Shown here: positions 34,001 through 36,714 of the stretch, in pieces
Position numbering within the stretch: the stretch's first letter is position 1
Layout: every line of letters begins with the position of its first letter
Assembly: GCA_017983845.1 (NCBI GenBank)
Contig: JAGOAO010000003.1
Span: 33,719-97,718 of the forward strand
DNA length: 64,000 bases
DNA from: Sediminibacterium sp.
Lineage (GTDB): Bacteria > Bacteroidota > Bacteroidia > Chitinophagales > Chitinophagaceae
Direction: 5' to 3'
The notes under the pieces: generated by a model
Database searches by the model: none
What the model was told of the DNA's origin: nothing
Seen by the model: the letters and a program-made list of their open reading frames with translations, nothing else
Position numbers and translations under genes: made by a program

Positions 34001-35656
34001 TTAGATTTTGTACATTTTCTCATAATATTCGTCAGCCATACGATTGCTATCGAATTGGAAACGAACATCTTTCATTCCATTTTGCGTAATTTGTCTCCAT
34101 GTATCTTTTTGCTCATAATACATTGGTACAATTTGTTGCTCTAGGATTTTGTATAGTTCATTTAAATCATACTCGTCTTGTGCTTCTGTGCTCATATTGG
34201 CATAATCAGCCTTTGGCACCACAAAACCATTGTTACCATGGTTTACAAATTCTGGTATCCATCCGTCATCTGTAGAGAAGTTAACAGAACCGTTCATTGC
34301 AGCAGTCATACCACTCGTTCCAGATGCTTCTCTAGGTACTCTTGGGTTATTCAACCAAATATCAGAAGCTTGCTTCATACGCTTACTCAATGACAATTCG
34401 TATCCAACCAAAACAGCAACATTTTTATAATTCTTACTTAGATTCACTAAGTGGTTGAATTGAGAAATAGCTGGATGGTCTACTGGGTAAGGTTTTCCTG
34501 CAAATATAATTTGTACTGGATATTTTAAATTTGATAATAATTTTTCGAATCTTTCTAAATCCCAAGAAAGGAAGTCGGCACGCTTATAGCCCGCGAATCT
34601 TCTTGCCCAAACGATGGTCAATACTTTAGGGTCAAATATTTTACCAGTTTGGTCTGCTACGATTTCAAAAGCACGCTTTTTCAAATACCATTTTCTATCG
34701 TCAAATGCAGCATCGTCGGCAGTTTCTGCAAATTTATACAATTGCTTATCCGCCCAATAGCGCCAGTTTTGCGCATTGGTAATATGGTCGATAGGGCAGA
34801 TGCCTTCATATTTACCCCACATTTCACGGCTTACATGTCCATGCAATTCAGAAACACCATTCGCTTTTCTTGCAAAACGAAGTGCAGCTAAAGAGTGATT
34901 GAATTGGTCATCATGAATGCCGGTTAATCTTCTTACTTCATCAATGCCCAATCCGCAGAAATAGCCCATTTTATGACATAAATAAATGTCGTGCTTTTCG
35001 TTACCAGCTTCTTCTGGGGTATGTGTTGTAAAGACTAAACGCTTTTTAACTTCGTCTAAAGATTTGTACTTGTTTAATAAGTAGAAAGCAGCAGAGAAAC
35101 CATGTGCTTCATTCAAGTGGTATACTTCTGGATTGAAATTTAATTCGTCAATCAATTTTGCACCACCTACGCCCAATAAAATAAATTGAGCCACTTTGGT
35201 TGCCACATTCGCATCGTACAATCTGTGTGTAATGGTTTGAGAAACATAATCGTTCTCTGGCAAATCGGTACTCAATAAAAACAAAGGTGCACTACAAAAA
35301 GTATTGGGTGCTAAATAATACGCTTTCACCCAAACTGGATGATCATGAATTAAAATTTGATATTTAATACCCGTGTCTTCTAAGAAGCTATACATCTTCT
35401 CCATAAAAGTCACTTGTAATGTTTGGTCTTGATTTCTTGCTTGATCGTAGTAGCCGTATTTCCAAAGCATACCAATACCGATCATATTTTGATTTAATTC
35501 AAAGGCGCTTCTTAAATGTGAACCAGCTAAAAAACCCAATCCACCGCTATAAATTTTAAGTGGTTGGTGGATAGCAAACTCCATAGAAAAATAAGCAGCT
35601 TTCTTGGAATACTTTTCATTGATAGGATAAGGAACTTGGTAGTTTCTAAAACTCAT
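34001..35656 (-). CDS. glgP: Short alpha-glucan phosphorylase (GT35)-like protein without the PLP lysine
   Basis: GT35 phosphorylases release glucose 1-phosphate from alpha-glucans using pyridoxal phosphate. This 551-residue product matches the short bacterial type: YFSMEFAIHQPLKIYSGGLG (residues ~22-41), HDHPVWVKAYYL, HLNEAHG, a central KRADFLSWDLERFEKL and the conserved WLNNPRVPREASGTSGM. In active enzymes the next residue of the last motif is the PLP-binding Lys (SGMK or NMKL). Here it is Thr451 (codon 34304-34306, ACT). The protein is also ~100-250 residues shorter at the N-terminus than full GlgP. I infer that it is inactive as a phosphorylase, or works differently. Confidence 0.86.
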   Translation of the reverse strand: MSFRNYQVPYPINEKYSKKAAYFSMEFAIHQPLKIYSGGLGFLAGSHLRSAFELNQNMIGIGMLWKYGYYDQARNQDQTLQVTFMEKMYSFLEDTGIKYQILIHDHPVWVKAYYLAPNTFCSAPLFLLSTDLPENDYVSQTITHRLYDANVATKVAQFILLGVGGAKLIDELNFNPEVYHLNEAHGFSAAFYLLNKYKSLDEVKKRLVFTTHTPEEAGNEKHDIYLCHKMGYFCGLGIDEVRRLTGIHDDQFNHSLAALRFARKANGVSELHGHVSREMWGKYEGICPIDHITNAQNWRYWADKQLYKFAETADDAAFDDRKWYLKKRAFEIVADQTGKIFDPKVLTIVWARRFAGYKRADFLSWDLERFEKLLSNLKYPVQIIFAGKPYPVDHPAISQFNHLVNLSKNYKNVAVLVGYELSLSKRMKQASDIWLNNPRVPREASGTSGMTAAMNGSVNFSTDDGWIPEFVNHGNNGFVVPKADYANMSTEAQDEYDLNELYKILEQQIVPMYYEQKDTWRQITQNGMKDVRFQFDSNRMADEYYEKMYKI

Positions 35657-35766: not shown

Positions 35767-36714
35767 TTATTTCTTTGCCTTTGGCTTTCTTTTCTTATCG
35801 TAGCTATCATTAAAATAGCAGGTCATATTTCTATGATTTCCACAATTTCCATCCTCCTTAATTTTTATGATATTCCCGGTAATGGTAAATTGAATCGTGC
35901 AAGGGTCTCCTTTTTCAGAATAAGTTGCTTGATTTTTATTGAAATTCAAGAGGCCTTTGAGTTCTCCAACACAAGTGCCTTCTTTCTTTTCAAAGTGCAT
36001 AAAGAATTGGTATTTATTTGGATTGCCAAAATCTCTTAAGGAAATAAAATTCTTTTTGTCTCTTGCATAGTCACCACTATACGTATTGACGGTGGGTAAA
36101 GTGTCAATTGGATTTAAAATTGCTTTTTGTTCTGGTTTGATATTGGTATCAAAATAAATCAATCTAAATCCATCTTCGGTATAGGCCCAACCTTTTTTTT
36201 CATTGGTCAACCCTTGTTCTGGATCTAATTTATTTTCTTCTACTAAAAAAGTGGGTTCTTTATTGATCAATAATGTTTTGCCGTAGAATTGAGATCCCTT
36301 ATGTGTCAGATCAAATTGGGTCAATACCTTAAACCCTAAAAACACATTCTTTTTGCTAAAAGTGATGACTGCAACTTCTTGACTTTTAGCTTCCCTTTTG
36401 TTAATCAATAAATAATATTCCGACTCTTTCTCGATCTTGCCAATGGGGAATAGTATTGCATTTTTTGATGCATTTGGAACAATGACATCTAGTACAGAAT
36501 CAGGCACAAATTGTTTCAATGCATTTTTCCCAATTTTGATGGTGTCTGTAATCGTAGCTAAATTAGTATCATTGATACGAAGGGGTAACTCAATCGATTT
36601 GAAAGCTTTATTGAAATCGTTAATTTTTAACGGGGTATCTCCAGAAAGATCGGTCTTGTTTTCTGTGCATCCAATCAATGCCAATAGGATCAAAAGACAA
36701 CTTAGTTGGCGCAT
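35767..36714 (-). CDS. Lipoprotein of unknown function
   Basis: The 315-residue product begins MRQLSCLLILLALIGCTENK, a lipoprotein signal with the acylated Cys at residue 16. The mature protein is mostly beta, with segments SEYYLLINKREAKSQEVAVITF, KGWAYTEDGFRLIYFDTN and VGELKGLLNFNKNQATYSEKGD. It has a Cys pair near the C-terminus (CTIQF, CGNHRNMTC) and a basic tail. I do not recognise the family. It is a single gene, divergent from the Nramp-Usp gene. Two DnaA-box-like sequences lie just past its 3' end. Confidence 0.75.
   Translation of the reverse strand: MRQLSCLLILLALIGCTENKTDLSGDTPLKINDFNKAFKSIELPLRINDTNLATITDTIKIGKNALKQFVPDSVLDVIVPNASKNAILFPIGKIEKESEYYLLINKREAKSQEVAVITFSKKNVFLGFKVLTQFDLTHKGSQFYGKTLLINKEPTFLVEENKLDPEQGLTNEKKGWAYTEDGFRLIYFDTNIKPEQKAILNPIDTLPTVNTYSGDYARDKKNFISLRDFGNPNKYQFFMHFEKKEGTCVGELKGLLNFNKNQATYSEKGDPCTIQFTITGNIIKIKEDGNCGNHRNMTCYFNDSYDKKRKPKAKK

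Follow-up and report, generated by a model that had tools for sequence, protein, structure and literature searches.

Can a member of the alpha-glucan phosphorylase family that lacks the cofactor-binding lysine still work as a phosphorylase and, if so, what holds the cofactor? This question is raised by one gene in a 64,000-nucleotide stretch of a Sediminibacterium sp. genome (hereafter, the window). According to PMC8950772, the GT35 enzymes characterised so far are without exception alpha-1,4-glucan phosphorylases, and in the bacterial enzymes PLP is covalently bound to a lysine, according to PMC11046441. The protein encoded in the window has threonine at this position. The gene and the residues on which the argument turns are located in the window as follows.

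34001–35656, minus strand: gene for a GT35/TIGR02094 homologue (Thr-type), a 551-aa ORF with an ATG start.
34304–34306, minus strand: codon 451 (ACT), Thr at the PLP lysine position, directly after EASGTSGM.
34307–34330, minus strand: EASGTSGM, residues 443–450, with the catalytic Glu443 and the phosphate loop T447-S448-G449, with little or no variation among 66 aligned proteins.
34373–34375, minus strand: codon 428 (AAG), a gained and invariant Lys (47/47 in the clade, 0/47 in Lys451 enzymes), the candidate new PLP anchor.
34400–34405, minus strand: Gly418-Tyr419 of GYE; the Tyr is retained and Gly418 is new in the clade.
34583–34603, minus strand: RRFAGYK, residues 352–358, with catalytic R353 and K358 and the basic residue 352 (PLP-phosphate contact in GT35), 47/47 each.
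34766–34780, minus strand: TNAQN, residues 293–297, the clade-specific form of TNGVH.

Judged from its sequence, the 551-residue protein is a member of the TIGR02094 family, with a score of 436.4 bits against a curated cut-off of 191.7, and it also exceeds the curated cut-off of PF00343 (56.6 against 27 bits). The GT5 glycogen synthase model TIGR02095 gives 46.5 bits, below its cut-off of 328.45. Yet the PLP lysine after EASGTxxM that marks the GT35 functional family is replaced by Thr451, which sets the protein apart from an ordinary GlgP despite its TIGR02094 membership. In the alignment, column 451 is Lys in 9l6i, a glycogen phosphorylase of Segatella copri, in classical GT35 enzymes and in all 47 non-redundant Lys-type relatives, which confirms the observation in the earlier note on this DNA that Thr stands at the PLP lysine position. 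Thr451 was present in 81 of 81 loci, a set that includes the output of a search limited to the 80 best of 247 relatives. The codons used for it comprise all four that encode Thr (ACT 63, ACA 39, ACC 34, ACG 30, with some genes counted twice). Thus, Thr451 is neither error nor chance, and a sequencing error at this codon, which the earlier note had named as a way in which its claim could fail, is ruled out.

A gene directly upstream on the same strand (35767–36714) encodes a lipoprotein-like protein of 315 residues, for which no Pfam match was found and which gave no functional clue. Members of its cluster were found in 23 of 70 compared stretches, in most cases adjoining the Thr-type gene.

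Thr-type proteins occur in many Bacteroidota, and public records label them 'alpha-glucan family phosphorylase, glgP', an annotation that presumes a chemistry for a clade without the PLP lysine. Our literature search found neither a paper on a GT35 member without this lysine nor a published check of the chemistry of the Thr type, and a search by structure code gave nothing relevant. Among 163 distinct GT35 sequences, de-duplicated from the collected loci, the 118 short ones (<690 aa) have Thr (112), Ser (4) or Ala (2) at position 451, and the long ones have Lys in 45 of 45. In non-redundant rows, residue 451 is Thr in 41, Ser in 4 and Ala in 2 of the 47 clade members and Lys in 47/47 of the Lys-type relatives; both sides of this comparison are de-duplicated, and the Lys-type set includes a Leptolyngbya homologue (L265) added by hand. 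The plasmid copies in two named strains, Pontibacter actiniarum and Runella rosea, likewise have Thr451 (21 of the 30 matches in the plasmid survey were examined).

In a quick tree of 95 rows, in which long branches were flagged, the 47 Thr/Ser/Ala proteins are separated by a branch with an SH-aLRT value of 100 and a length of 1.78 changes per column. The rows outside this branch, which comprise two classical GT35 enzymes and Lys-type proteins from Bacteroidota and from other phyla, have Lys throughout. The simplest reading of these sequences is therefore an ancestral Lys451 that was lost a single time. The forms with Ser or Ala (L155, L156, L158, L178, L187, L128) belong to one paralogue subclade of seven rows; several are second copies, often beside a Thr451 copy in the same genome, and Lys428 is retained throughout. 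The median dN/dS within the clade is 0.026 (41 finite values from 48 pairs), indicating strong purifying selection.

The short N-terminus to which the earlier note drew attention is real: the protein starts about 90 residues later than 9l6i, with model residues 11–551 aligned to 102–712. However, 11 Lys451 enzymes of other phyla are equally short. Length is therefore not tied to Thr451, and we rejected the short N-terminus as a partner of the residue change.

An AlphaFold2 model of the protein (pLDDT 95.3, pTM 0.93) has the GT-B phosphorylase fold. Among the matches listed, its best solved match is 9l6i (Z 36.5, rmsd 1.9, 533 residues aligned); classical GT35 enzymes come second, with Z values of about 32–33, and GT5 synthases follow closely (2qzs, Z 32.0). 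The fold by itself does not decide between a phosphorylase and a synthase.

Apart from residue 451, the active site is retained. In a 66-row alignment of both types, G38-G41, N182, H185, H212, N294, R353, K358, D432 and E443-T447 are invariant and S448 and G449 nearly so; the catalytic Arg, Lys, Glu and His residues (R353, K358, E443, H185 and H212) are thus all in place. Position 352 is basic in all 47 clade rows (R 40, K 7), each of which also has R353 and K358. Its equivalent in GlgA is Gly in 18 of 19 sequences, the remaining one being unmatched by the search pattern. We take the classical GT35 lysine aligned with residue 352 to be K534 of MalP. According to PMC11046441, K534 is one of three MalP lysines that coordinate the PLP phosphate. 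The retention of a basic residue at 352, in contrast to Gly in GlgA, favours a phosphate-bearing cofactor such as PLP. Residues 352, Y419, W301 and T447-S448, all in the PLP-phosphate or ring region, are retained in the clade.

A plasmid homologue from Leptolyngbya boryana (AP018204.1, L265:136-1995) has retained Lys451, but its catalytic Glu443 is replaced by Lys (PLKASGTSGMK); from its sequence, it may be inactive.

The earlier note overlooked a second change in the aligned sequences, the gain of an invariant lysine at position 428. All 47 clade rows have Lys428, whereas none of the 47 Lys451 rows does; there the residue is V (39), I (3), T (3), L (1) or F (1). The enzymes of Criblamydia, Simkania and Methylophaga combine Lys451 with Thr428, the reverse of the pattern in the clade. 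Misalignment is unlikely because the spacing from residue 428 to the EASGT motif is constant. In the model, helix 421–430 bears Lys428 and helix 448–454 bears Thr451, with strand 433–436 between them. Successive helices usually pack side by side in a Rossmann sheet, so the long side chain of Lys428 may reach the emptied pocket in the modelled structure. The earlier note had conceded that its case would fall if PLP were bound to another lysine, and Lys428 is now a concrete candidate for that role.

Several columns that are fixed in Lys451 enzymes are altered in the clade (D46S, D129S/T, G295A, H297N, A389P, H390Y), and together with the long stem they make a new reaction conceivable. The Gly418 that the clade acquired is also present in two Lys451 enzymes and in GlgA; its occurrence in the two Lys451 enzymes weakens it as a sign of nucleotide use.

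The genome containing the window (2.03 Mb, 97.6% complete) carries a gene row (L199) for GlgB, a cyclomaltodextrinase-like GH13 protein, an MFS transporter, GlgC and GlgA, and a CBM20-GH77 4-alpha-glucanotransferase (L248); it gave no match to another GT35, GlgX or GH65. The presence of a full GT5 GlgA led us to reject the Thr-type protein as the sole glycogen synthase of this genome. The same genome encodes a 276-aa protein (L200, G000:C22:11994-12671) whose match to GT5 GlgA is confined to the N-terminal half. Similar half-length matches were seen across the 60 Chitinophagaceae genomes, and a conserved GT5 fragment in Bacteroidetes is mentioned in PMC11046441.

The Thr-type gene was found in 44 of these 60 genomes, one of them (G044) on the basis of a 118-aa fragment. 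GlgA matches occur in all 44 carriers (partial in G043, G044 and G048) and a CBM20-MalQ-type GH77 in 43. A second, classical GT35 is present in only two (G009 and G055), so the Thr-type protein is usually the sole GT35. GlgX is not linked to the gene (9/44 carriers versus 4/16 other genomes). Among 244 Chitinophagaceae genomes, related members of which are not independent, 181 have both a query match and GlgA, 6 GlgA only, 5 a match only and 52 neither; two of the 181 (G473, G504) and two of the 5 (G344, G382) are weak, seemingly Lys-type matches. Among 15 carriers from six other families, GlgA is present in just 5 and GH77 in 9, and the four carriers that lack both all belong to one family. 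A general link to GlgA thus fails: the association with GlgA and GH77 is firm in Chitinophagaceae and loose beyond.

On the Pontibacter plasmid the order is type II GAPDH, DUF1622 and then the Thr-type glgP. Lys-type glgP adjoins type II GAPDH in Pseudorhizobium; in Indioceanicola it lies between phosphoglucomutase and a CBS protein, with type II GAPDH beside and GlgX near; and in Methylophaga it adjoins DUF1622, with GlgX near. The Pontibacter GAPDH is 67–69% identical to the two proteobacterial GAPDHs. In this single case, the Thr type occupies the slot of a Lys-type phosphorylase. The gene group as a whole (type II GAPDH, DUF1622 or a CBS protein, glgP, phosphoglucomutase and GlgX; L253, L274, L275, L276) is common to Proteobacteria and Pontibacter. 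The Runella plasmid copy adjoins a 'pyridoxamine 5'-phosphate oxidase family' gene; this name spans many flavin proteins, and the neighbour is not informative.

Several lines of evidence argue that the Thr-type protein may be a PLP phosphorylase with an altered hold on its cofactor: (i) Lys428 separates the clade completely from the Lys451 enzymes, three of which have Thr at that position. (ii) Residue 352 is Arg or Lys throughout the clade and Gly in GlgA. (iii) The catalytic residues are invariant, and the closest solved structure among the matches listed is a glycogen phosphorylase. (iv) Chitinophagaceae carriers have GlgA and almost always GH77, rarely a second GT35, and the window genome lacks a GH65 match. 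(v) The plasmid slot in Pontibacter matches that of proteobacterial Lys-type glgP, with GAPDH and/or DUF1622, phosphoglucomutase and GlgX. Other observations count against it. The stem length and the altered columns suit a changed reaction, and the residue swap happened once, on a single branch, and does not count as repeated evidence. Another lysine, K322, was likewise gained and is the sole other such residue that is fully invariant in the clade. GlgX is unlinked and missing from the window genome, both GlgA and GH77 are lacking in four carriers of a single family, and the cassette is a single case.

We tentatively favour an active alpha-glucan phosphorylase in which PLP is held differently, by Lys428 or non-covalently, and would put this close to, though short of, an even chance. 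The protein would be a retaining enzyme of the GT35 fold, acting on the outer chains of glycogen or on maltodextrins beside MalQ and presumably yielding glucose 1-phosphate. The phosphate of PLP would still be used, with the ancestral Lys451 no longer the holder. The anchor would probably have shifted as Lys451 gave way to Thr, Ser or Ala and an invariant Lys arose at position 428 on the adjoining helix; this Lys could either form the imine from another backbone position or retain PLP non-covalently, by charge. A reduced phosphorylase, which has no imine, remains active. The expectation in the earlier note that phosphorolysis must fail without Lys451 therefore does not follow, since the catalytic group is the phosphate of PLP, as described in PMC11046441.

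It is unlikely, though a serious contender, that the clade dropped PLP altogether and now relies on a nucleotide-sugar donor again, or on bare phosphate, while Lys428 supplies the charge in the emptied pocket. If true, this would be a living reversal of the replacement of nucleotide by PLP that is thought to have occurred in a GT-B ancestor. In the doubtful case of a nucleotide sugar, the pocket would take ADP- or UDP-glucose, and the protein, as the descendant of a phosphorylase, would be an alpha-glucan synthase or transferase. Such a change would reverse the proposed origin of GT35, whose precursor is suggested, in PMC11046441, to have been nucleotide-sugar-dependent, with PLP replacing the nucleoside monophosphate. 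The small residue at 451 leaves space, GYE at 418–420 resembles GYN/GYS of GlgA, the stem is long and its columns remodelled, GlgA and GlgC keep the gene company in Chitinophagaceae, and GlgA folds rank close among the matches listed (2qzs). However, the basic residue 352 retained here is missing in GlgA, two Lys451 enzymes also carry Gly418, a full GlgA already exists in the window genome, GT5 GlgA is missing from 10 of the 15 carriers outside Chitinophagaceae, and the maltodextrin pathway of most carriers would be left beside MalQ without a phosphorylase.

With bare phosphate, which we consider rather doubtful, free phosphate would do the chemistry and Lys428 would replace the charge of the cofactor, as proposed by analogy with GT4 trehalose phosphorylases, which act without PLP. 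In PMC8950772, the GT4 trehalose phosphorylases are listed alongside GT35 as retaining enzymes of the same mechanism type. R353, K358 and the glycine loop, which bind phosphate, are retained, and the position in the pathway would be the same as for a PLP phosphorylase; but so are 352, Y419, W301 and T447-S448, and without a cofactor nothing would demand them. The suggestion of the earlier note that the protein is a glucan-binding or regulatory pseudoenzyme without catalysis seems very doubtful. The loss of the cofactor lysine, the Ser or Ala at 451 in the paralogue subclade and the remodelled columns would fit it. The expected loss of catalytic residues or relaxed constraint was not seen, however: R353, K358, H185, H212, N294, D432, E443 and T447-S448-G449 are conserved clade-wide under strong purifying selection. 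The protein is also usually the carrier's sole GT35, fills the phosphorylase place in the Chitinophagaceae pathway and takes the glgP slot in the plasmid cassette. Given the single origin, the purifying selection and the retained GT-B catalytic residues, a decayed pseudoenzyme appears unlikely from sequence.

If Lys428 holds PLP, this would be a textbook enzyme whose cofactor lysine has migrated; without PLP, the clade would offer extant proteins in which the proposed descent of GT35 from a nucleotide-sugar enzyme could be put to the test. In either case, most Chitinophagaceae rely on a protein of unproven chemistry for the phosphorylase step of their glycogen metabolism.

Among known systems, the TIGR02094-type glycogen phosphorylase of Segatella copri (9l6i) shares the fold, 32% identity, the catalytic motifs and the EASGTSG loop with the Thr-type protein, but has the PLP lysine, lacks Lys428 and is extended by about 90 N-terminal residues. 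The short (~565 aa) Lys451 glgP proteins of Proteobacteria, Chlamydiota and Cyanobacteria (Microvirga, Simkania and Methylophaga among others) resemble it in length, family and motifs and have the plasmid cassette in common with the Pontibacter Thr type, but they keep Lys451, have V, T or I as residue 428 and form a separate clade (SH-aLRT 99). Classical GT35 enzymes (E. coli GlgP and MalP, muscle phosphorylase) have the same fold (MalP 1qm5, Z 32.9) and active-site motifs, but are longer and only about 20% identical, and in E. coli MalP the PLP is carried on K646, as given in PMC11046441. GT5 GlgA has the GT-B fold, the catalytic Arg, Lys and Glu, and GY ahead of the helix equivalent to that of residue 428, but it has Gly before the catalytic Arg and EPCGL where the clade has EASGT, and it uses ADP-glucose.
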